The notes: generated by a model from the sequence alone, not told the origin. A stretch of DNA of 21,234 bases from a virus (IMGVR_UViG_3300004461_000622:1-21234); one strand, 5' to 3'. Numbered from the stretch's first letter, positions 3,661 through 19,794 are shown. Program-made: numbers and translations.

Positions 3661-3960
3661 ATGGGAAAGTTTGAAGTAGGAAATAAGATGGGTGGTAGAA
3701 AGCCAGGTTCTCTTAATAGGAGTACCGAACAGGCGAAGCTGACTATTGCTAGACTTGCTAATAGAGGATTGGATAATATAATGGAAGACTTTGACAAAAT
3801 AAGAAAGGATAGTCCTGTTGAAGCAGCTAAGTTATATCTTAAACTATTAGAATATATTGTACCTAAGAAATCTTCTATTGATATATCAGGCGAAGTAAAT
3901 CATAAGGTGCAACAGATTAGTATTAATATAAACAGAAAGGAAATTGGAACTAACGATTGA
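3661..3960 (+). CDS. probable terminase small subunit
   Basis: The ATG at 3661 follows an A-rich leader. The 99-residue product starts with a basic, Gly-rich segment typical of phage packaging proteins (GNKMGGRKPGSLNRSTEQ, residues 8-25). Helices follow (KLTIARLANRGLDNIMEDF and VEAAKLYLKLLEYIVP). Small subunits recognise the phage DNA and load the large subunit. The assignment rests on this N-terminus and on direct overlap with the large subunit gene (17 bases). The gene is shorter than many small terminases, and I see no textbook helix-turn-helix, so another DNA-binding role is possible. Confidence 0.55.
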   Translation: MGKFEVGNKMGGRKPGSLNRSTEQAKLTIARLANRGLDNIMEDFDKIRKDSPVEAAKLYLKLLEYIVPKKSSIDISGEVNHKVQQISININRKEIGTND

Positions 3961-5940: not shown

Positions 5941-6050
5941 CTGATTTACCATTAGAGAAGTGTTTATTATATCTTGCATACAAATCAGATAAGGTTGAAT
6001 TAGAAAACCTTTTACATAGAGAAGCATTGAAAAGACAGCAGCAGTCCTAA
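5784..6050 (+). CDS. -1 frame extension of the tail assembly chaperone
   Basis: Entered by a -1 shift at the T9 tract, this frame is open for 88 codons to the TAA at 6048-6050 and would give a 256-residue fusion. It has no ATG: the frame is closed upstream by a TAA at 5727-5729, and no Met occurs in it. Yet the peptide is protein-like and familiar, with FGKKWGSYATIVEIANNDIL, then a predicted helix with KCLLYLAYKSDKVELENLL. This matches my memory of a common Bacteroidota phage tail-protein domain (F-x-x-x-WGWYxxIYxLAxGDI). It fills the otherwise empty gap before the next gene. A true one-base indel in the assembly is the chief alternative. Confidence 0.6.
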   Translation, partial: CKFVNGLNERYPEIFEGGGTSTQHQVNFGKKWGSYATIVEIANNDILKFEAITDLPLEKCLLYLAYKSDKVELENLLHREALKRQQQS

Positions 6051-6075
6051 CGATATTTTCGTTTTAGATTGTTAT
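6048..6075 (+). promoter_or_regulatory. phage late promoter motif, copy A
   Basis: TAACGAT (6048-6054), 14 bases, then TTGTTAT (6069-6075). The same two boxes with the same spacing occur at 9337 and 11881. The first three bases are the stop codon of the -1 frame extension, so the promoter is fitted to the gene end. A transcript starting about seven bases after the second box would begin near 6082, leaving a short leader to the ATG at 6090. Confidence 0.65.
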
Positions 6076-6089
6076 ATCATAAAGATACT

Positions 6090-6356
6090 ATGGCTAAATG
6101 GTCTAACTCACGCAATGGAAACCTTCGCTACTCTGTTAATAGAGAGAATGCGAGTGGTATATTCCTTGGCCCTACTCAGGGTTTATCATCACCTAAGAAT
6201 AGCAGGAGAGCATGTTTATGTTTGAACTCTAATACTTACGATGTTAAATGTTGCAATGGTGCTTTGTTAGAACAAGGCATTGGTGTAATACAGGGAACAA
6301 GAATACATACAGGTGGTGGATTTAGCGATGGATACTCAAACGGATTTGACAATTAA
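6090..6356 (+). CDS. small Cys-rich virion-region protein (88 aa)
   Basis: I start at ATG 6090, not 6069, because 6069 lies in the -10-like box of promoter copy A and would be outside the transcript. The 88-residue product begins basic and polar, then carries the signature ACLCLNSNTYDVKCCNGALL followed by EQGIG, and ends Gly-rich (HTGGGFSDGYSNGFDN). The 'CLC...YD..CC.G.L..QGIG' pattern recurs in small proteins beside structural genes of many environmental phages, though its role is not known to me. The four Cys may bind metal or cross-link in the virion. It is the first gene of the block driven by promoter A. Confidence 0.7.
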   Translation: MAKWSNSRNGNLRYSVNRENASGIFLGPTQGLSSPKNSRRACLCLNSNTYDVKCCNGALLEQGIGVIQGTRIHTGGGFSDGYSNGFDN

Positions 6357-6373
6357 GTAAAACAAATTATAAT

Positions 6374-8578
6374 ATGGCTCAGTTAAGTAAACAGGCTTTA
6401 ATAGTAGGAAACAATACAAGTTTTCCAAATAATACAACCAATTACATTACACCTGCAATCTTACGCAGTTTCAATGTGGATATGATTGACTCATTCGTAG
6501 ATGAAATACCATATGGAGCATATACTCAATCGGTAAATTCTTCTTTGAACTCATTAAACCAATTCACTGCATCAGCAGCTGGATTATCAACAGGTAGTTT
6601 ATTAGTAACTGCTTCTGCAAATATAAATGTAATCACTTTCACTAAAGGTGATGGTACTACATTTAATGTGACAGTCGCTGATACAACAAACTTAACTCCA
6701 TTAAACCAATTTACTGCATCTCAAGCAACTATAAACACTGCGATAGGTGCAAGTACTTCTTCATTGAATAGTGCAACTGCAAGTTTATTTACTTCTGCAA
6801 GTTTAAGTTTAACAACTGCTTCGGTAAATCTTAACACAATTACATTTACTAAGGGTGACAAATCAACATTCGCTATAACAGTCAATACTGGTAGTAGCAC
6901 TGCATCAATACCAACAGGAACAATATCAGGCTCTCAACAAATAACTGCATTAGGTTTTGTTAGTTCATCTGTAACTGCATCTTCATTAGTGACTGCAAGT
7001 GTGAATGTAAACATATTAACATTTACTAAGGGTGATGGTTCTCAATTTAATTTAACAGTAGCGGCAAGTGGTAGTGTAACACCGGGTACTGTATCAGGTA
7101 GTGCGCAGATAGTAGGATTAGGATTTTTACAAACTTCTTCATTCCAAACTTATACATCTTCAATTGATAATAAATTTATTTCAGTTGGAGCTAGTACTGC
7201 TTCATTAAACACATATACTCAATCTAACGATACAAAGTGGACAACATTGGGTGGACAAACTGGAAGTTATATAACTAGTGCACAGACTAGTTCAATGTCT
7301 GTTGCAACAGCATCAATAGCATTAGCAGTATCTACTTCTATATCATCACAAAACTTACAACACTTTGTGACATTTGTAGATAATTCAACAGGCACTCAAG
7401 CAATATATGTTGATGGTGGAATAAAATACAATCCAAATCAAGACTTATTATTAGTAAACAATATAACTTCATCTGGATATATTTCAGCAAGTAGTTTAAA
7501 TTTAAGCGGAACACTAACTGCATCTTTACAAACAGGATATGTGTGGGTAGGCAATAGTGGTAATGTTTCTACAATAGTTGCTACATCTTCATTTGCAGCA
7601 GTTCCTTTGACATCATTGAATGCATACACTGCAAGTAATGATACTAAATGGAATACACTACAAACTACAACTGCATCATTCAGTGCTTCAGTTGCAAGTA
7701 TAAGTGCATTAACTGGAAGTTATGCAACAACAGGAAGTAACTCATTTATTGGAACTGAAATTATAACAGGTAGTTTAATTTTGAGTGGTTCTACAACTCC
7801 TTTAATTGTTAGTGGAAATATTACTCAGCAAGGAGCATTTAGTTTTATATTAAGTGGGTCAACTTCAAAAGTAACAATAAATCAAAATGCTGTAACAATA
7901 GCTAGTGGTTCGGTTTCTGGAGCACAAACACAGGCAATATTAGGTAGACTTATAGGTATAACACATATATCTGCAAGTAATCAAATTGGTATAATTTCTA
8001 ATGCAAATAGTTTAGGTTCTTATGGCCCGTATCCTGTAATATTTGTAACATCCGGTAGTAATTTTGCAACTTATAATCCAATTCAATTTCAAAATGCTAC
8101 TTCATATACTGATGGCAGAACAACATTTACGACACCAATACAAGCATTAGCAGGCGAAGAAGTAACAGGAAGTTTATCAGTAAGTGGTTCTAAAACAATC
8201 ATAGGAACGAATACAGTAACTGGCTCAATGATTACAACAGGTAGTTTTATTTTAACTGGAAGTGCACAAGGTAATGTAGTATCAATGTCTATTTCATCTA
8301 ACACTGCTTCTATGGATTTGACTAAAGGAAACTATTTTGAATTAACATCATCTGCAGTAGTTCCATTAAGAATTGAATTAACTAATATTAAAGCAGGCTT
8401 GACATCAACACTTATTATATCTGCATCAGTTTCTACATCAATTGTATTTAGTCCAAATGTAGGTCAACCTTCACCTGGAGCATATTCAGGAAGTGCTGCA
8501 GCAAGTACAGATATATTATCTTTTGTTGCATTCAATACATCTAAAGCAAACTTAGTAGCAACTAAAAATATAATTTAA
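6374..8578 (+). CDS. large repetitive tail fibre-like protein (734 aa)
   Basis: After a unique N-terminus (about 1-50, likely virion attachment), the protein is built from Ser-, Thr- and Ala-rich repeats of two kinds: SLNxxTAS-like helical or β-prism repeats and a (N)xITFTKGDGxxFNxTV unit seen three times. A GSLILSGS-type stretch follows, and a C-terminal domain of about 110 residues begins near GNVVSMSISSNTASMDL. The composition (few charged or aromatic residues) and the triplicated units fit a long trimeric fibre. A shorter paralogue at 15046 shares the repeats and C-terminal domain. The TAATG end is coupled to the lectin gene. It may be a fibre shaft or a decoration protein; exact location in the virion is not shown. 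Confidence 0.75.
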   Translation: MAQLSKQALIVGNNTSFPNNTTNYITPAILRSFNVDMIDSFVDEIPYGAYTQSVNSSLNSLNQFTASAAGLSTGSLLVTASANINVITFTKGDGTTFNVTVADTTNLTPLNQFTASQATINTAIGASTSSLNSATASLFTSASLSLTTASVNLNTITFTKGDKSTFAITVNTGSSTASIPTGTISGSQQITALGFVSSSVTASSLVTASVNVNILTFTKGDGSQFNLTVAASGSVTPGTVSGSAQIVGLGFLQTSSFQTYTSSIDNKFISVGASTASLNTYTQSNDTKWTTLGGQTGSYITSAQTSSMSVATASIALAVSTSISSQNLQHFVTFVDNSTGTQAIYVDGGIKYNPNQDLLLVNNITSSGYISASSLNLSGTLTASLQTGYVWVGNSGNVSTIVATSSFAAVPLTSLNAYTASNDTKWNTLQTTTASFSASVASISALTGSYATTGSNSFIGTEIITGSLILSGSTTPLIVSGNITQQGAFSFILSGSTSKVTINQNAVTIASGSVSGAQTQAILGRLIGITHISASNQIGIISNANSLGSYGPYPVIFVTSGSNFATYNPIQFQNATSYTDGRTTFTTPIQALAGEEVTGSLSVSGSKTIIGTNTVTGSMITTGSFILTGSAQGNVVSMSISSNTASMDLTKGNYFELTSSAVVPLRIELTNIKAGLTSTLIISASVSTSIVFSPNVGQPSPGAYSGSAAASTDILSFVAFNTSKANLVATKNII
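6620..7060 (+). repeat. three coding copies of the TFTKGD repeat
   Basis: Copies begin near 6620, 6829 and 7009, each encoding a TASxN.N.(I/L)TFTKGD..(T/Q)FN.TV unit. A fourth copy lies in the paralogue at about 15705-15759. The third copy and that one match at roughly 45 of 51 bases by eye, so the two fibre genes share recent ancestry or exchange sequence. Confidence 0.7.
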
Positions 8579-9324
8579 TGATATTTCAAAACTTTGGATT
8601 TAATCAATTAAGTATACCTGCAACAGGCGGCGGAGGTGGTGGTGTTGTGACTAATGGATTAATTGCATATTATGATATCGGTAATGCCGGCGGATATAGT
8701 GGTACAACACTTAATGATTTAAGTGGTAATAGCAATAATGCTTTATTAATGAATGGTGCAGCATATTCAGGAAGTAATGGTGGTGTAATTCAATTAAATC
8801 AATCTTCAGTATCAGCAACAAGATTATATATTGCAATTCCTGATGGGGTTATTGATACAATAAATGCGAATGGTACAAATGAAGCATCAATTCAATTATG
8901 GATTAAATTAGAAAATGCCGTACCAAATAATGACCCACAATCTGGTTTCATGCAATTCACTGCACAAACAAATGGTATTGGTGTTCACTATCCTTATCCT
9001 GATAATAATTTTTATATCAATACTCTAAAAGATTATAGACCTAGTCAAGGTACTCCAATAACTAATTTAGCAGTATGGCATTATACAACAATAAGAACTG
9101 CCCCTACAAGTAACGGATGGGATTTTTATATTAATACAACTCAACAAGGTATTAGTGATGGTTTAAATACCTTAACACTTATTAAACCATTTAAGATTGC
9201 AGAAGCTGGTGGAGGTAATGATTTACACTTACAAGGTGCAATTGGCCCTATATTAGTTTACAATAGAAAGATATCAAATGCAGATAGAAACCAGAATGCG
9301 GCTTACTTTGCAAGTAGATTCTAA
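8578..9324 (+). CDS. LamG-like lectin domain protein (probable receptor binding)
   Basis: The ATG shares a base with the fibre gene stop (TAATG). A short N-terminal peptide (MIFQNFGFNQLSIPA) joins through a run of six Gly (about 17-22) to a LamG/concanavalin A-like domain: GLIAYYDIGNAGGYSGTTLN followed by DLSGNSNNALLMNG, and the later strand motifs IQLWIKL and WHYTTIRTA, ending in GAIGPILVYNRKISNADRNQN, the usual last strand of Laminin_G_3 domains. These domains bind glycans, so it is probably a host-surface adhesin attached to the fibre. The first residues may be the attachment peptide. The following 60 bases hold promoter copy B. Confidence 0.75.
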   Translation: MIFQNFGFNQLSIPATGGGGGGVVTNGLIAYYDIGNAGGYSGTTLNDLSGNSNNALLMNGAAYSGSNGGVIQLNQSSVSATRLYIAIPDGVIDTINANGTNEASIQLWIKLENAVPNNDPQSGFMQFTAQTNGIGVHYPYPDNNFYINTLKDYRPSQGTPITNLAVWHYTTIRTAPTSNGWDFYINTTQQGISDGLNTLTLIKPFKIAEAGGGNDLHLQGAIGPILVYNRKISNADRNQNAAYFASRF

Positions 9325-9336
9325 AATAAAATAAAA

Positions 9337-9364
9337 TAACGATTTTTTCACAAAGGTATGTTAT
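9337..9364 (+). promoter_or_regulatory. phage late promoter motif, copy B
   Basis: TAACGAT (9337-9343), 14 bases, then ATGTTAT (9358-9364), matching copies at 6048 and 11881. It begins 12 bases after the lectin stop and lies 24 bases before the scaffold ATG at 9388. The second box is the centre of a perfect inverted repeat, AGGTAT-GTT-ATACCT (9354-9368), present only at this copy, which might be an operator or an RNA hairpin. It would drive the scaffold-capsid block. Confidence 0.65.
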
Positions 9365-9387
9365 ACCTGTATAAACAATAAAACAAT

Positions 9388-10212
9388 ATGAACTCAAAAA
9401 GCGTATTAAACAAAATATTAACTCTTTTATCTTTAGCAGATGAAAAGATGATTCAAGGAAAAACTGATGATGGTACAATTTTACAATCATCTAATTTCGA
9501 TGTTAATGATGATGTATCCGTAGTGTCTGAGGATGGAACAACAAGTCCTGCCGAAGATGGTGAATATACAATTTCATTTACAAATCCAGAAGGAAAAGAA
9601 GATACACAAGTAATTAGTGTTAAAGGTGGTAAGATTGAAGAAATCTCTACACCTGAAGATGTTGCAGCTGATGACACAGAAGAAATGTCTCACACAGGTA
9701 CTCCGCAAGACCCAGCAAATGGTAATGCACAAACTAGAAAAGACATCAATTCAGTACCAGGTTCTAAAGTAGCAGATACTAAATTAGCAAACGAATTCCC
9801 TGCAGCACCTAAAGGAGCTACAAAGGATGAAGCTAAATCATTACCTAATACAACTGATGAAGACCCTAGAAATTCAGTAGGTAACGATACTGATGATGGT
9901 AAAGACCCAATCATTTCATTGTCTTATAGAATTTCAGAAATGGAAAAGCAAATGAAAGATATGATGGAGAAATTTGCAGATATGAATCCACCAGCAGAAG
10001 AAGGTGCAGATGAGAGTGTAGCTCCATCAGCAAACTTACCTGAAGATGGTGTTGCAATGTCAGCTGACGAAGAAGAAGAGTTACCAAAATTAGATGGTGC
10101 TCCAATTGAAAATGCAGGATTTAAATTCAATTCTGATACAATTCACAAAACAAACAATAGCGGTAAGGTGCCAAATTCACAGAATAGCTTCTTATCAAAA
10201 TTATATAATTAA
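9388..10212 (+). CDS. probable capsid scaffold protein
   Basis: The 274-residue product is strongly acidic and low in hydrophobic residues. Residues about 24-90 resemble the 'DGTILxxxxFDVxxDVxVVxEDGxxxPxxDGEYxIxxxxGKxxxVxVKxGKIEEI' pattern seen next to capsid genes of Bacteroidota phages. A disordered Asp-, Glu- and Pro-rich middle follows, with a helix (SYRISEMEKQMKDMMEKF, about 179-196) typical of scaffold coiled segments, and a short C-terminal tail that could touch the shell. It lies 17 bases upstream of the major capsid gene, the usual place for a scaffold. A decoration or head protein is the alternative. The leader is A-rich (aaacaataaaacaat). Confidence 0.7.
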   Translation: MNSKSVLNKILTLLSLADEKMIQGKTDDGTILQSSNFDVNDDVSVVSEDGTTSPAEDGEYTISFTNPEGKEDTQVISVKGGKIEEISTPEDVAADDTEEMSHTGTPQDPANGNAQTRKDINSVPGSKVADTKLANEFPAAPKGATKDEAKSLPNTTDEDPRNSVGNDTDDGKDPIISLSYRISEMEKQMKDMMEKFADMNPPAEEGADESVAPSANLPEDGVAMSADEEEELPKLDGAPIENAGFKFNSDTIHKTNNSGKVPNSQNSFLSKLYN

Positions 10213-10229
10213 TTAAAAAAACAACAAAC

Positions 10230-11195
10230 ATGAAAAAATTTCAAAAGTTTGCTGAACCTACAGTAACCAACACCACGTATGCGGGTGAGGCAGCTGCACA
10301 ATACATTGCAGCAGCATTGTTATCAGCAAAAACACTTGACAACAAGTATGTGACTATCATGCCAAACGTGAAATACAAAGAAGTAATTCAAAAGTTAGCA
10401 GTAGATGGTATCGTACAAGACGCATCTTGTGATTTCGTAACTTCAGGTAGTGTAACTATTTCTGAAAGAGTAATCACACCTAAAGAATTGCAAGTTAACT
10501 TACAATTATGTAAGCAAAACTTCGTAGCATCTTGGGAAGCTTTACAATTAGGATTTTCTGCATTTGACGAAATTCCTAAATCATTCAACGACTACTTAAT
10601 CTCTTATGTAGGTGGTGTAGTAGCACAGGCTACTGAACAATCTATCTGGACTGGTAGTGCATCAACTAACGGACAATTCGGTGGTTTCTTACCTGCTTTA
10701 TCTTCATCAATTGCAGCAGCAACAGGTGTAATCTCTGCAAAATCTGGTAGTGTTGTAATCTCTGGAAGTATCACTTCTGCAAACGTATTATCTGTAATGA
10801 ACTCAGTAGTGGATACAATCCCTGCAACAGTTTATGGTAAAGAAGATTTGTTATTATATGTTCCTACAAACGTAGGTAAAGCATATCAACAAGCTTTAGC
10901 AGGTGGTGCAGTAGGTGCAAATGGTTGGAACAACCAAATGAACGTAGGTGATAAGCCTTTCAACTTCAATGGTATTGAAATCGTAATGTGTCCAGGTATG
11001 GCATCTTCTACAATCGTTGCAGCTCAAAAGTCTAACTTGTTCTTCGGTACAGGTTTACTTTCTGACTACAATGAAGTAAAAGTTATCGACATGGCTAATA
11101 TTGATGGTTCACAAAACTATCGTATCATTATGAGATACACAGGTGGTACACAAATTGGTATCTTAAGTGATGTAGTTTACTACGGAGCTTACTAA
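10230..11195 (+). CDS. major capsid protein
   Basis: The 321-residue product has the layout of a HK97-fold capsid protein: a short N-arm (MKKFQKFAEPTV), a helical Ala-rich segment (AAQYIAAALLSAKTLDNKYV), a spine-helix region (about 95-145, with FVASWEALQLGFSAFDEIP), a variable insertion, and a C-terminal strand series (YRIIMRYTGGTQIGILSDVV). It follows a scaffold-like gene, and it uses more C-ending codons (AAC, TTC, ATC) than its neighbours, as expected of the most abundant virion protein. The leader taattaaaaaaacaacaaac is A-rich without a Shine-Dalgarno. No protease domain is fused and none is obvious nearby. It is followed by a hairpin at 11210-11230. Confidence 0.85.
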   Translation: MKKFQKFAEPTVTNTTYAGEAAAQYIAAALLSAKTLDNKYVTIMPNVKYKEVIQKLAVDGIVQDASCDFVTSGSVTISERVITPKELQVNLQLCKQNFVASWEALQLGFSAFDEIPKSFNDYLISYVGGVVAQATEQSIWTGSASTNGQFGGFLPALSSSIAAATGVISAKSGSVVISGSITSANVLSVMNSVVDTIPATVYGKEDLLLYVPTNVGKAYQQALAGGAVGANGWNNQMNVGDKPFNFNGIEIVMCPGMASSTIVAAQKSNLFFGTGLLSDYNEVKVIDMANIDGSQNYRIIMRYTGGTQIGILSDVVYYGAY

Positions 11196-11209
11196 ATATA
11201 ACTGAATAA

Positions 11210-11230
11210 GGTGGGTGTAAAAAGCCCACC
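11210..11230 (+). terminator. hairpin after the capsid gene (attenuator or weak terminator)
   Basis: GGTGGG (11210-11215) pairs with CCCACC (11225-11230) around a nine-base loop. The following sequence (ATATTTAATA) is T-poor, so termination is likely partial. Placed 15 bases after the major capsid stop and before the tail-tube-like gene, it could raise capsid over tail transcript or stabilise the capsid message. Confidence 0.6.
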
Positions 11231-11265
11231 ATATTTAATAACTAACAAAATAAAAATTAACAGAT

Positions 11266-11823
11266 ATGCCATGTAACTTAACCGCAGGTAGACAGGAAGT
11301 ATGTAAAGAGAGTATAGGTGGACTTCAAGGAGTTTACTTTATCAATTACACATCTGGCTCCTTCACGCAAACAACAGGTAGTACAGCAGTTCCAGCTGGT
11401 TTAATCACAGGATTACCAACAGGAGTTAGCACAGTTTACTACTATGAGTTAAAAGGAACAAGTGCTTATACTGAAACAGTCAACACATCTCGTGAAAATG
11501 GTACAACTTTCTTTAGTCAAGAGTTATCTTTACACTTAAAGAAATTAACCAATGAAATGACTACACAATTAAAGTTGATGGCTTATGGTCGTCCTCAAAT
11601 CATTGTGTGGACAAATAACGGAGATGCATTGTTAGTTGGCCAACATTTAGGAGCAGATTTGACTGCGGGCACAATTTCAACAGGTGGAGCATTAGGAGAC
11701 CTTTATGGTTATTCTGCTACTTTCACAGGTATGGAACAATTCCCAGCAGCATTTTTATCCGGAAGTACAACTACTTCTCCATTTGCAGGATGGTCAGTAC
11801 AACCAACTATCGTTTACTCTTAA
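11266..11823 (+). CDS. putative tail tube protein
   Basis: The 185-residue product starts with C3 and a conserved-looking MPCNLTAGRQEVCKESIGGLQ segment trimmed here to its first residues (MPCNLTAGRQEVC). The middle reads TVNTSRENGTTFFSQELSLHLKKLT, and later comes GYSATFTGMEQFPAAFL, patterns I recall from a Bacteroidota phage family annotated as tail-tube or major tail protein. It is β-rich with few charged residues, fitting a tube protein that polymerises around the tape measure. It follows the capsid gene and ends before a terminator. The family link is from memory only; a minor head protein is the alternative. Confidence 0.6.
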   Translation: MPCNLTAGRQEVCKESIGGLQGVYFINYTSGSFTQTTGSTAVPAGLITGLPTGVSTVYYYELKGTSAYTETVNTSRENGTTFFSQELSLHLKKLTNEMTTQLKLMAYGRPQIIVWTNNGDALLVGQHLGADLTAGTISTGGALGDLYGYSATFTGMEQFPAAFLSGSTTTSPFAGWSVQPTIVYS

Positions 11824-11847
11824 TAGTATAACGCATTAAAAATATTA

Positions 11848-11877
11848 ACCCTACTCTTAACGGAGTGGGGTTTTTTT
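11848..11877 (+). terminator. strong Rho-independent terminator
   Basis: ACCCTACTC (11848-11856) pairs with GAGTGGGGT (11863-11871), nine pairs with one G-T wobble and a six-base loop (TTAACG). A run of seven T (11871-11877) follows. It ends the scaffold-capsid-tube block, and the late promoter motif begins four bases later. Confidence 0.88.
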
Positions 11878-11880
11878 ATT

Positions 11881-11908
11881 TAACGATATTTACTAATTAG
11901 GATGTTAT
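11881..11908 (+). promoter_or_regulatory. phage late promoter motif, copy C
   Basis: TAACGAT (11881-11887), 14 bases, then ATGTTAT (11902-11908). It starts four bases after the T-run of the 11848 terminator, so transcription of the portal block must restart here. The ATG of the next gene is at 11940, allowing a leader of roughly 25 bases. Together with copies at 6048 and 9337 it defines the motif. Confidence 0.7.
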
Positions 11909-11939: not shown

Positions 11940-12305
11940 ATGTACGGATACCACATATCTCAATCCAACGAATATACATTCAGGATACAACCTACGGCAA
12001 GTGCTGAGTTCACTATGAGTTTGCAGGATATGACTACACTACAAAACTTCACAGGAAGTATTTCTAGTATGAGTTATCAACCCTACGAATCATATGTTTC
12101 ATTTAGTTTAAACATAAGTGGTGCAATAGTTGGTGAAGAATATAGAGCAACACTTTATAATTCAGGTAGTACAACCTCTTTATGGAATGGTTCATTTCAA
12201 TCATTTGCATCTACATCCGTATCTATTCCTAAATCAGATTATGAAAATCAAAATAAACAATATGTTTCTCATGTAACTGAGAACAGATTTGTAATACTAG
12301 ACTAA
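11940..12305 (+). CDS. small β-rich hypothetical protein (121 aa)
   Basis: The first gene after promoter copy C; its stop is followed one base later by the portal ATG. The 121-residue product is rich in Ser, Thr and aromatic residues, with alternating strands (FTMSLQDMTTLQNFTGS, YVSFSLNISG, EEYRATLYNSGS), a pattern of an Ig-like or other β-sandwich domain, and a charged end. It could be a head decoration protein or a virion accessory factor. I do not recognise a family. Three bases earlier, a tiny frame from 11902 overlaps the promoter and was not accepted. Confidence 0.65.
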   Translation: MYGYHISQSNEYTFRIQPTASAEFTMSLQDMTTLQNFTGSISSMSYQPYESYVSFSLNISGAIVGEEYRATLYNSGSTTSLWNGSFQSFASTSVSIPKSDYENQNKQYVSHVTENRFVILD

Positions 12306-12306
12306 T

Positions 12307-13605
12307 ATGAAACTACAACAAAAATTTGCAGTAATTAATGTAAATACAAACCAACTTCCTGTTATAACGGAAGATACAAAGACAAGATACTCATGGGTAC
12401 CATTTGGTGTTTATGGGCATGATGATTTCTTTGATGCAGTTAGAAGTGCATTCAATGTATCAACAACTACTTCTGCATGTGTGGAAGGTATATCTGATTT
12501 AATATTTGGTAAAGGTATTTATTCTAAAAATAAATTAATGAATGATGTTTTACAAAAGTTAATTCCACAAGAAGAAACTAAAAGAGTAGCATTTGATTTA
12601 AAATTATTCGGTAATGCTGCATACCAAGTTTATTGGGATGACGCACATGAGAAAGTAATTAAGTTTTATCACATACCTGTTCAAACTCTTAGAGCTGAAA
12701 AGTTATATGGTGAACCTAAAGTACAAAATTATTATTATTGTACTGATTGGAATGACCAAAGAAAGATTAAAGATAAAAAGAAAGTTCCTGCTTTTGGAAC
12801 TTCAAATGAAAAGATGGAAATACTTTACATAAAGAACTATTTCCCTGGACTATATTATTATTCACTTCCTGATTGGGTTTCTGCTATGCAATATTCAATA
12901 TCAGAAGGTGAAATCTCTAACTTACATTTAAATAACATTACAAATGGTTTCTTACCTGCAGTAATGATTAACTTTAATAATGGTGTACCGGCTCCTGAAG
13001 AAAGACAAACGATTGAAGATTTGGTTCAAGCTAAATTTACAGGAACTAATAACGCAGGTAGATTTATGTTATCATTTAACGATGATTCAACTTCCAAGCC
13101 TACAATAGATGTAATTAACATTGATAACTTACATGAGAAATATGAATATGTTGCAGACCATACGCAAGACCAAATCTTAGTAGCACATAGAGTTACTTCT
13201 CCATTACTTTTTGGTATCACAACAAAGAATAAAGGATTTAGTTCAAACGCAGATGAAATGATGACTGCATTTTCTATCATGCAAACAATGACTATTAGTC
13301 CATTCCAAAATCTTATCTTAAATACATTAGATATGGCATTGACAGAAGGTGGATATGAAGATACTAATTTATACTTTGAACAATTAACTCCATTAGTAAT
13401 TCTATCTAAAGCAGCGAGTGAGAGTGGAGATAGTGTTGCACAAATTGAAGACCAAACAAATAAGTCAATGGAAAATCCTGCAACACAGGACAATCCAGGT
13501 GACCAAACAACTGCAGAAGGTAATTTAGAATCTGAACCCGTACCAAATGTAAGTTTTAGTTCAAGACTTTTTGAAAAAGAATACGAAATATTTAAACAAA
13601 AATAA
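12307..13605 (+). CDS. portal protein
   Basis: The 432-residue product has the features of a phage portal: a WVPFG-type N-terminus, a segment TTTSACVEGISDLIFGKGI (about 53-71), then DLKLFGNAAYQVYWD and HIPVQTLRAEKL. A helical stem and clip region follow (PAPEERQTIEDLVQAKFTG), then HRVTSPLLFGI (about 294-304), matching the 'sh.vp..l.G' motif of portal proteins. The tail (from about 390) is disordered, Asn-, Glu- and Pro-rich. A dodecameric portal is the gate for packaging and the tail attachment site. Unusually, it lies after the capsid and tube genes, not just after the terminase. The connector gene follows two bases later. Confidence 0.82.
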   Translation: MKLQQKFAVINVNTNQLPVITEDTKTRYSWVPFGVYGHDDFFDAVRSAFNVSTTTSACVEGISDLIFGKGIYSKNKLMNDVLQKLIPQEETKRVAFDLKLFGNAAYQVYWDDAHEKVIKFYHIPVQTLRAEKLYGEPKVQNYYYCTDWNDQRKIKDKKKVPAFGTSNEKMEILYIKNYFPGLYYYSLPDWVSAMQYSISEGEISNLHLNNITNGFLPAVMINFNNGVPAPEERQTIEDLVQAKFTGTNNAGRFMLSFNDDSTSKPTIDVINIDNLHEKYEYVADHTQDQILVAHRVTSPLLFGITTKNKGFSSNADEMMTAFSIMQTMTISPFQNLILNTLDMALTEGGYEDTNLYFEQLTPLVILSKAASESGDSVAQIEDQTNKSMENPATQDNPGDQTTAEGNLESEPVPNVSFSSRLFEKEYEIFKQK

Positions 13606-16440: not shown

Positions 16441-18192
16441 ATGTATATACCTTTAACATACTTTTCATCACAAGGAAGTTGCATTACTGCAACAACAACT
16501 TCAATAACAGGTAGTGGTTTAATTACTACTGGTAGTTTTATATCAGGTGGTTTTATTTGGCAATATTATAAATTTGAAAATATTGCTGATGTTAATAATG
16601 GTGTTAGTTCTTCATTTACTGCATCATTCAACATAGTAAGTGGCTCTACTTCTCAAGCAAAACTTTTAATAGTAGGTGGCGGAGGTGGTGGTGGATTTAC
16701 TTCATGTTGGCAATTGGGAGATTGTGGACAACAAGCAGGAGCAGGGGGTGGTGCAGGAGGTGTTGTTTATTATGATAATTTTCCATTAGCATCAGGAAGT
16801 TATGAAATTTCTGTTGGTTCTACTGGCGTTAATTCAACTTGTCAAAGTGGATATGATAGAGTAATTGTAGGAACTATTCCATGGCTTGCTACTAGCGGTA
16901 GTGTCTCTTATATTAAATTACCAAATAATGAAATTTATACACCATTTACATCTTCATATATAATTGCAAAAGGTGGAGGTTCAGGTGCACAAATGGGAGT
17001 TGGAACTGGTGGATTATCATTCGGTGGAAGAAGTGGTGGAAGTGGTGGTGGAGCAGCTGCTTATAATAATACTTATACTGGTTTTCCTTCTAATGCAAAT
17101 GGATTGGGTGGTTTAAATAGTGCAAATCAAGGAAATACAGGTGGTGCTGCAACTGGTTCGGGTGGTGCAGCTGCAGCAGGTGGTGGAGGTGCTGGAGGAA
17201 ATGCACCTGATAATAATCATACTATACCAGGCATACCTGGAAATGGTCTTACATTTAATTTAACAGGTACTCCTACATTAGTTGGACAGGGTGGATATGG
17301 AACTTATTCTTATACAAAAGTTTCAGGAAGTACAGGATATGGTGCCGGCGGAAGTGGTGGTATTGGTGGTTGGTATAGTTCTCAACCTTGTCCAGACCAA
17401 GGACAAAATGGTGTTGTAATTATTGCATATCCTATTTGTTCTTCTAAATTTGCTTGTACAAACTTTGCAATAACAGGGTCAGGTGGGCCTATTAGTTGGA
17501 CTGAATGTTCATATGGTAGATATGTAACTCAAACTGCTTATATAGGATATAATTACGGATTTACTGCATGTTTAACTACATGGTCAGGAAGTAATGTTCC
17601 ATATCAATTAGAAGGTGCAATCATAACATCAAGTGTAGTTGGAAATTGTAGTTCAGCATTTACATCATCTACAAGTTGTAGTTGTGAATCATATTATTAT
17701 TCTCCAAATGGTACACAAACATTAACATGGGCATATTGTGATTCAACATTACTTCGTTCACAAAGTATATCTACTGGAACTTATAAATGTACAAACCCTG
17801 CAGTACCTGGACAAGGTATAACAGGTGCAGGAAGTACAATTACTTTTTTAGGTATTTGTGCAACAGGAAGTTGTTCAGGTCAAACTACAACAACAACTAC
17901 GACTACAACAACAACAACTACGACTACAACAACTACTACAACTGCAAAACCACCAACAACTTACGCAACATGTAGTTGTAGGTCTTATTTATTTAAAGCA
18001 GGGCCTGAACCTACTAATACTGCAACAGGAATTATGTATTGCGGCAGTGCAACTTCTGGTAGTTTTGTTTTAACTTCTGGAAGTAGTGCAACAATTTGCG
18101 TAGTATCATCATCAGCTAATTATTTTGGATTAACAGGTGGTGAGTCTACAATAACTTTTTTAGGAACATGTACAACTTCAAGCTGCGCATAA
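16441..18192 (+). CDS. glycine-rich adhesin with Cys-rich repeats and a polythreonine linker
   Basis: The N-terminal two-thirds contains a Gly-rich domain (LLIVGGGGGGGF, many GGG and GGAAAAGGGG tracts) ending near NGVVIIAYPI, the hallmark of phage tail-fibre glycine-rich tip domains that bind receptors. Then come Cys-rich repeats: a CTNFAITGSG part, a CSCESYYYSPNG domain and, after a 20-Thr linker (residues 482-501), a CSCRSYLFKAG domain. The last two are homologous, each ending with ITFLG(T/I)C and a CS/CA finish. This looks like a receptor-binding tip plus modular decoration. It lies four bases after the fibre gene and one base before the next gene. Confidence 0.72.
   Translation: MYIPLTYFSSQGSCITATTTSITGSGLITTGSFISGGFIWQYYKFENIADVNNGVSSSFTASFNIVSGSTSQAKLLIVGGGGGGGFTSCWQLGDCGQQAGAGGGAGGVVYYDNFPLASGSYEISVGSTGVNSTCQSGYDRVIVGTIPWLATSGSVSYIKLPNNEIYTPFTSSYIIAKGGGSGAQMGVGTGGLSFGGRSGGSGGGAAAYNNTYTGFPSNANGLGGLNSANQGNTGGAATGSGGAAAAGGGGAGGNAPDNNHTIPGIPGNGLTFNLTGTPTLVGQGGYGTYSYTKVSGSTGYGAGGSGGIGGWYSSQPCPDQGQNGVVIIAYPICSSKFACTNFAITGSGGPISWTECSYGRYVTQTAYIGYNYGFTACLTTWSGSNVPYQLEGAIITSSVVGNCSSAFTSSTSCSCESYYYSPNGTQTLTWAYCDSTLLRSQSISTGTYKCTNPAVPGQGITGAGSTITFLGICATGSCSGQTTTTTTTTTTTTTTTTTTTTAKPPTTYATCSCRSYLFKAGPEPTNTATGIMYCGSATSGSFVLTSGSSATICVVSSSANYFGLTGGESTITFLGTCTTSSCA
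17884..17943 (+). repeat. ACN trinucleotide repeat encoding a 20-Thr linker
   Basis: Twenty consecutive Thr codons, mostly ACA and ACT with a recurring ACG. An 18-base unit (ACAACAACAACTACGACT) occurs at 17887-17904 and 17908-17925. Changes by whole triplets would keep the frame, so the linker could vary in length between related phages. Confidence 0.85.
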
Positions 18193-18577: not shown

Positions 18578-18627
18578 CATCAATAACAATCCAAAAATGA
18601 TGTGTTATACTATAAAGGATTATATAC
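18578..18627 (+). promoter_or_regulatory. gap with a weak late-promoter-like sequence
   Basis: TAACAAT (18584-18590) and GTGTTAT (18602-18608) resemble the two boxes of the late motif, and the sequence after the second box (ACTATAAAGGAT) is close to copy A. The spacer is 11 bases, not 14, and the first box has a mismatch, so I rate it weak. The ATG of the next gene at 18628 is 19 bases beyond. Confidence 0.25.
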
Positions 18628-19794
18628 ATGTCATTATCAATCACTCAAACTCCTGCAGTCGTATCATTGGCACAATCGCCAATCATTTTTACAGTCTCAG
18701 AAAGTAATGCACAATTAAGAACATCAGCATCATTTCAATATGTTGGTGAATTATATTATTGGCAAGGAGGCCCAGCTGCATCTTCATCAGTAGCAAATTA
18801 TACAATCAACAAATATAAAAACACATCAAATGTTGGTATATTTGATTTGAATAGAATTATCAACTCAACCCTTACAGATTATCTTCAAGCAAATCCATCG
18901 AATGTGGAATACTTTGCAGTTGATTTCTATACACAATATCTTTCGGGTGTATCTTATATAACAGGCTCTCATGTTCGTTCTGCAACATATAAAGCATTAG
19001 ATGGTTATGGTATTTTCCAAGAACCAATCGGACAGGCAGTTTATAGTAAAACACCACATTGGCCATTGATGACCGATGGGCCTGTAACTCAAAGTTGTTT
19101 TACAACTAATTATGGTTTAGCAGGAGTATATGGTGGTGATGCAGGAACAACACAACCGACAAAAGTAGTTTATACAGGTAATACAGGAACAGGTGATTAT
19201 ACATTAACTTCAAATGTATCATCTTCAGGACAAGTACAACAATATCCAATCGGCCCTTCAGAAGCAGGGTTTCCAATTTCAGCAGTAGGTTTAACATATT
19301 TTAAAACACAAGCTTATAATGGTGCAACTCCATTAGGAACAGCTATTACTTATGAAGTAGATTGTTTACAAAAATATCCTAATGTAAGAATCAAATGGAA
19401 AAATAGATTTGGTCAATTTGATTACTTTAACTTTTATATGGTTAATAAACAATCATTCCAAACCGAAAAGAAAACATATCAACCACAATTAGGAACATGG
19501 GAAGGTAGTTCATTGTCTTATCAAGATTATGATTCAGGTATATTAAATTATATTTCTGATTCCAAACAAGCTATTCAAGTAAATTCATTTTGGATTCCTG
19601 AAACTTATAATGATATTCTAAAACAATTATTAGTATCTGATGAAATATATTGGGTTTATAATGAAGCAACTAATAGTGTTAGACCATTAACTATTGCTAC
19701 ATCTAATATTTTATTTAAAACAGGAGTTGTAGATAAATTAATTCAATATCAATTTGATTTCAATTTTGGACAGGCCTATAAACTTATCATATAA
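18628..19794 (+). CDS. tail structural protein (388 aa)
   Basis: The 388-residue product is β-rich with alternating Ser/Thr and aromatic strands. The pattern IKWKNRFGQFDYFNFYMVNK (about 255-274) and the following segment VNSFWIPETYNDILKQLLVS are typical of a Bacteroidota phage tail family I recall as a minor tail or baseplate-associated protein. It is coupled through a TAATG junction to the next gene, another tail or hub-like protein. It may link the tail tip to fibres. No enzymatic motif is visible, so a structural role is the safe reading. Confidence 0.6.
   Translation: MSLSITQTPAVVSLAQSPIIFTVSESNAQLRTSASFQYVGELYYWQGGPAASSSVANYTINKYKNTSNVGIFDLNRIINSTLTDYLQANPSNVEYFAVDFYTQYLSGVSYITGSHVRSATYKALDGYGIFQEPIGQAVYSKTPHWPLMTDGPVTQSCFTTNYGLAGVYGGDAGTTQPTKVVYTGNTGTGDYTLTSNVSSSGQVQQYPIGPSEAGFPISAVGLTYFKTQAYNGATPLGTAITYEVDCLQKYPNVRIKWKNRFGQFDYFNFYMVNKQSFQTEKKTYQPQLGTWEGSSLSYQDYDSGILNYISDSKQAIQVNSFWIPETYNDILKQLLVSDEIYWVYNEATNSVRPLTIATSNILFKTGVVDKLIQYQFDFNFGQAYKLII

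Follow-up and report, generated by a model that had tools for sequence, protein, structure and literature searches.

How are the virion genes switched on in the phage represented by IMGVR_UViG_3300004461_000622:1-21234, and by which protein? The sequence, a fragment of 21,234 bases from a virus record and hereafter the window (the whole stretch of DNA analysed; near-complete relatives are ~30–34 kb), carries a two-box element, TAACGAT-N14-WTGTTAT (W being A or T), ahead of three virion gene blocks, and a first-pass annotation made from the sequence alone had called these copies putative phage late promoters. We conclude, with a probability of about 0.86, that the three elements are extracytoplasmic function (ECF)-type late promoters read by host RNA polymerase with a phage sigma factor encoded at 2327–2893, "late" being a timing that the genes served suggest. 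The first-pass annotation had missed this ECF-like sigma factor, the likely reader.

Three two-box elements ahead of virion genes

Three exact copies of TAACGAT-N14-WTGTTAT, at precisely the positions and on the coding strand first reported, were found in the window, and none in 100 dinucleotide shuffles. Allowing one mismatch yielded no further copy in the window, and a backwards control pattern gave none.

6048 to 6075, + strand: putative late-promoter element 1, exact match (TAACGAT-N14-TTGTTAT), preceding an 89-amino-acid gene (ATG at 6090) and a fibre-like gene at 6374–8578
9337 to 9364, + strand: putative late-promoter element 2, exact match, preceding a scaffold-like gene at 9388–10212 and a capsid-like gene at 10230–11195
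11881 to 11908, + strand: putative late-promoter element 3, exact match, preceding a gene at 11940–12305 and a portal gene at 12307–13605
11849 to 11877, + strand: intrinsic terminator, CCCTACTC-TTAACG-GAGTGGGG-T7, read in the sequence and predicted to close the capsid transcript

The blocks that follow are indeed virion gene blocks, as had been claimed: a conserved 89-amino-acid gene with a large fibre-like gene, a scaffold-like gene with a capsid-like gene (phrog_11320), and a portal operon. From box 2 to the accepted ATG we measured 14 bases (ATG 6090), 23 bases (ATG 9388) and 31 bases (ATG 11940), close to the 13–32 originally given, and AAC lies 22 bp from GTT at the window elements. Box 1 on its own is overrepresented, with nine TAACGAT copies against 1.8 expected, all on the + strand, and is joined by box 2 only at the three intergenic copies. 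That the other six copies lack box 2 had been recognized before, but some of their coordinates were off by 1–2; the true starts are 1933, 3951, 7225, 9882, 13077, and 15909. Element 3 begins four bases past the T-run of the terminator at 11849–11877, and a terminator-like hairpin with a T-run occurs 5′ of element 3 at the same place in most relatives.

Conservation among relatives

Over 599 relatives of the capsid-like protein (10230–11195) are present in the viral collection, and 80 loci were read. The element is kept ahead of orthologues of the three genes in 213 of 219 relatives' regions, with fixed spacing (element 1, 65/68; element 2, 81/83; element 3, 67/68). In its family form, box 1 reads T(A/T)AC-N-A and is followed, after N16, by a box 2 of TGTT and then AT, AA, AG, or TT; judging by these relatives, the exact letters TAACGAT and WTGTTAT are not the family consensus. 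Spacing is rigid, as 64 strong forward matches fell at the correct distance versus 0–4 at most other distances. An excess at +3 was rejected as a separate signal, since A-tracts make the same sites reappear there in a shifted register. A scan free of gene bias, in which the family consensus AATAACTATTTTT-N10-TTGTTATTA was run as a DNA pattern over 2.9 million viral contigs, returned 40 contigs, all 40 in this phage family and all with the match directly 5′ of the scaffold gene.

Six near-complete relatives carry 5–7 sites each, on the coding strand, nearly all intergenic and only ahead of phage gene blocks; these are placed at the 89-amino-acid gene, the scaffold-capsid genes, the portal gene, a gene whose product begins MKLYELK, another beginning MIK, and the sigma operon. 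Median distances from box 2 to ATG are 23, 28, and 36 nt by position, and 12 nt at two further genes. These are the MKLYELK and MIK genes of the near-complete relatives (L167–L178), where box 2 starts exactly 12 nt 5′ of ATG, a distance that suggests that their late messages may be leaderless. Absence from relatives and many copies inside genes, both of which the first-pass annotation had named as evidence against promoters, were looked for and neither was seen. Conservation, rigid spacing, strand, terminator adjacency, and start-codon proximity together support its proposal of late promoters.

The gene 5′ of the scaffold-like gene is often unrelated among close relatives, yet element 2 persists. 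This variability and the closeness of the element to start codons would also fit an element that acts in the RNA, as a leader motif, or that marks a recombination border between cassettes. We regard either role as extremely improbable, given that the distance from box 2 to ATG differs by position as described above, that no open reading frame (ORF) follows a fourth, weaker site (see below), and that the genes 5′ of element 1 are conserved.

A search of genome contigs for the host was limited in its matches to four distant metagenome-assembled genome (MAG) contigs, two named as Bacteroidetes/Bacteroidia, one as Polaribacter, and one as Woesearchaeota. A 48% capsid relative (L180, CP070803.1) in a contig named as a Candidatus Woesearchaeota chromosome may be a provirus, a fossil, or a binning error. 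A 62.6-kb viral record, IMGVR_UViG_3300043395_001957, contains two capsid copies of different phages (L015 and L026), each with a sigma gene and promoters, and could be a double prophage, a concatemer, or a chimeric assembly.

A phage-encoded ECF-like sigma factor

The protein that we propose as the reader, and a promoter of host type ahead of its operon, lie at the following positions:

2327 to 2893, + strand: ECF-like sigma factor of 188 amino acids, sigma2 at about residues 8–95 and sigma4 at about 112–184, matching phrog_1740 at 2.8e-8
919 to 949, + strand: promoter of host type, resembling those for sigma-ABfr, with the sequence TTTGG-N18-GTATATTA, preceding the sigma operon

The product of 2327–2893 matches TIGR02985 (1.9e-11; 44.4 bits against a curated cut-off of 126.4) and TIGR02937 (6.7e-9; 35.6 bits against 42.9), and all 20 of 20 sigma homologues match both families at E <= 0.01. 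With sigma2 and sigma4 as its only domains and a length of 188 residues, it has the architecture of ECF (group 4) sigma factors, which span ~160–200 amino acids. A predicted model consists of two helical domains, with a predicted local distance difference test (pLDDT) score of 80. Its sigma2 superposes on Streptomyces SigR (1h3l) with Z 8.7 and a root mean square deviation of 2.2 Å, its sigma4 on Escherichia coli sigmaE region 4 bound to −35 DNA (2h27) with Z 8.8 and 2.7 Å, and the best structural matches are sigma factors throughout the list. Wherever a locus extends far enough, the gene is found just 5′ of the terminase genes: in 66 of 66 such loci, a biased set fetched mostly by the sigma protein itself, and in 4 of 4 of the unbiased loci fetched by the capsid protein. 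Two weak Pfam matches under cut-off, Peptidase_A2_2 for the sigma ORF and Toxin_BN_H for the ORF at 3661–3960, were taken as chance. A weak match to the sigma family (L179:6867, 1.2e-7), possibly a third branch of the sigma/promoter system, occurs in a MAG contig of Bacteroidia that also contains a 48% capsid relative.

The consensus for sigma-ABfr, the housekeeping sigma factor of Bacteroidota, is TTTG / TANNTTTG (PMC6847099). Neither box, TTTG at −33 or TANNTTTG at −7, is present in the three elements, and the pair is approximated only at 919–949; TTTGG-N18-GTATATTA precedes the sigma operon in 35 of 38 relatives' loci versus 0.1 expected per region. The regulator gene is thus predicted to be served by a promoter of host type, and the virion genes by the phage-type element. 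An HNH endonuclease gene (980–1378) separates the host-type promoter from the sigma operon; it is probably a mobile insertion, since a homologue is found in only 13 loci.

In the model proposed here, TAAC(N)A would be the −35 box and (T)TGTTA(T/A) the −10 box, with transcription starting a few bases 3′ of the second box. The host-type promoter at 919–949 would start the sigma operon, so that sigma would be made first; host core RNA polymerase carrying it would then read the elements, activating three virion blocks (scaffold-capsid, portal, and fibre) as well as a short structured RNA.

Concerted change of sites within genomes

Of 103 same-genome site pairs, 95 share the two letters that follow TGTT, whereas permutation within each gene position gave 41.9 ± 4.5 agreeing pairs (maximum, 59). 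This concerted variation points to one shared reader for the sites of a genome. Shared ancestry also contributes to the agreement. Mapped on a tree of the capsid protein, each of the two sites sampled best shows 10 changes, which together need only 13 joint steps; therefore, at least seven of these changes coincide. Association with box-2 class is strongest at sigma columns that include 71, 74, and 75, while 78 ranks lower, and these four are spaced as one face of the last sigma2 helix, the expected place of −10 reading; their tie to −10 reading is only suggestive.

Another conceivable reader of the promoters, in place of the phage protein, is an alternative (ECF) sigma factor of the host. Sigma factors of the TIGR02985 type occur in Bacteroidota hosts, where they are generally known to be abundant, and AAC is common in their −35 boxes. 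We nevertheless consider a host reader very unlikely, because box-2 class differs between related phages and does so in concert per genome, with each phage keeping its own sigma gene, and because the sites in the six near-complete genomes lie solely ahead of phage gene blocks.

A related layout in a cultured phage

With the sigma protein as query, tblastn against cultured phages returned nothing at E <= 1. The capsid protein has a distant homologue (27% identity) in the Nonlabens phages P12024S and P12024L, and P12024S was reached by this route. Shortly 5′ of its terminase gene, P12024S has a sigma-like gene, gp33, whose product aligns with the present sigma family by profile (hhalign probability, 92%; hidden Markov model, 8e-5). 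On the forward strand, all six of six copies of CGTTA[AC]TA in P12024S lie exactly 12 nt 5′ of an ATG (gp01, gp05, gp08, gp41, gp44, and gp45); mononucleotide shuffles of the genome contain 1.8 copies on average. At these sites AAC is 21 bp (once 20) upstream of GTT. P12024S probably shares the layout described above, its consensus differing slightly. The exact 12-nt distance at its six virion genes (L096) suggests that late messages there may be leaderless as well.

P12024S also bears on the idea that the element serves to regulate as an operator or as an activator site, at which a dimeric phage protein would bind a TAAC...GTTA inverted repeat and regulate a nearby promoter. The boxes of the window are reverse complements, and reverse-strand matches recur at the same sites. 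This symmetry is not conserved: the TGTTTTTA class (L064, L076) alters box 2 and keeps the TAAC of box 1, and P12024S pairs AAAACAAA with CGTTAAT. The palindrome was rejected on these grounds. Moreover, no other conserved promoter box lies between box 2 and ATG (12–37 nt), and the conserved regulator nearby is the sigma gene, so that an operator is very unlikely.

Several points weigh against reading by the phage sigma factor. The sigma family scores below curated Pfam and NCBIfam cut-offs, and the predicted template-modelling score (pTM) of the sigma model is 0.43, because its two domains are flexibly placed. Phylogeny confounds the covariation between sigma residues and box class, and too few pairs were available to the independent-pairs test of whether sites change together, leaving it with low power. 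Relatives L079–L083, whose capsid is 50% identical, have no element; the sigma region lies mostly beyond their sequence, so that they do not form a clean negative control. Sigma binding to the sites, use of the host core enzyme, start sites, and timing are points that we infer.

A probable fourth site and a candidate structured RNA

Beyond the three exact copies, two weaker elements and a candidate noncoding RNA were identified:

708 to 735, + strand: weaker fourth element, TAAATAC-N14-ATGTTAT, score 10.4, preceding the candidate noncoding RNA and no gene
738 to 878, + strand: candidate structured noncoding RNA with no ORF, a stem/9-nt bulge/stem hairpin at 741–799 followed by an intrinsic terminator at 813–878
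18581 to 18608, + strand: possible fifth element, very weak and uncertain, score 9.9, preceding a gene at 18628–19794

The copy at 708–735 is probably genuine, because a site recurs at this position among relatives, 1.2–3.3 kb 5′ of the sigma gene in most of the sigma loci whose upstream sequence is long enough. As for the possible fifth element, the site preceding the gene orthologous to 18628–19794 scores 14.0 and 10.8 in two relatives.

The sequence at 738–878 folds with a z of −4.8, and the shape of a bulged hairpin plus terminator is also present in 31–32 relatives. When the test was anchored on the inner stem only, the outer stem paired in 85% of cells versus 52 ± 4% with the 3′ arms re-dealt. 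RNAalifold on a MAFFT alignment recovered the inner stem only, because the outer arms were misaligned. No Rfam match was found for 738–878. The natural reading is that this region would encode a small late phage RNA, for which antisense control and binding to RNA polymerase or to a host component are candidate roles.

Variable genes near the elements

Large T/S/G-rich fibre-like genes occupy 6374–9324, ahead of element 2. The genes at this place vary among relatives while the promoter stays, resembling a receptor-binding gene cassette. The ORF at 16441–18192 contains a run of ~20 threonine codons at about 17850–17940, and similar poly-threonine tails are encoded ahead of element 2 in several relatives (L050–L052 and L057).

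Comparison with known systems

Cellular ECF promoters, such as those of E. coli sigmaE, have AAC in the −35 box and a distance of ~21–22 bp from AAC to the GT of the −10 box. The elements resemble them in their AAC −35 box and comparable distance to GT, and have the fixed spacing of ECF-type promoters, generally ~20–22 bp to the −10 box. They differ in having TGTTA rather than a GTC-type sequence at −10, a sigma factor borne by the phage, and no evident anti-sigma gene. Late promoters of the T4 gp55 type consist of a −10 box, TATAAATA, alone, with no −35 box, whereas the present elements have two conserved boxes, the second being TGTTA. Promoters for sigma-ABfr are represented in this phage by the approximate match 5′ of the sigma operon (919–949), and the three elements match neither of their boxes.

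The closest parallels come from other phages. phiEco32 and its relative SU10 have an ECF sigma factor (gp36) for six promoters, three middle and three late, that bear the motif tAATGTATAtA (PMC4281155). The phages described here are like them in encoding an ECF sigma factor, in having about six phage promoters that include those of structural genes, and in a host-type promoter for the sigma gene (PMC4281155); the sigma factors are likened by description, not by homology. The phiEco32/SU10 motif is a single block 6–8 nt before the start, in contrast to two boxes at fixed spacing here, and those phages have enterobacterial hosts, genomes of 77 kb rather than ~30–34 kb, and an anti-sigma factor, gp73, of which no counterpart was found here. 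In Salmonella phage 7-11, late motifs that a phage sigma factor would read, tgtgatGTTATA, have been predicted upstream of the structural genes (PMC4331800). Its GATGTTAT core nearly equals box 2; it belongs to another phage group, its motifs are predicted rather than mapped, and no −35 box is reported for it.

A literature search, with subscription journals excluded, found no paper on a phage sigma factor with late promoters in Bacteroidota phages. On balance, we lean toward an undescribed Bacteroidota phage system in which an ECF-like sigma factor and two-box promoters drive the virion operons and a late structured noncoding RNA, and in which the −10 specificity has changed on several occasions, in step at every promoter. 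Transcription control in small Bacteroidota phages, which are common in lakes and seas, is barely charted, and a promoter consensus tied to a sigma family over ~100 phage genomes should allow late genes to be called from sequence. The −10 box varies in nature, in step across the sites of a genome, and provides a data set on sigma/promoter coevolution; the parts could act as orthogonal promoters in Bacteroidota; and Nonlabens phage P12024S offers a cultured phage in which the circuit is testable in the laboratory. A phage sigma factor with its own late promoters is already known from phiEco32 and 7-11, and the Bacteroidota two-box consensus appears to be new; given the likeness in working and the differences in −35 box, host phylum, and genome type, we therefore regard this as a new version of a known kind of system.

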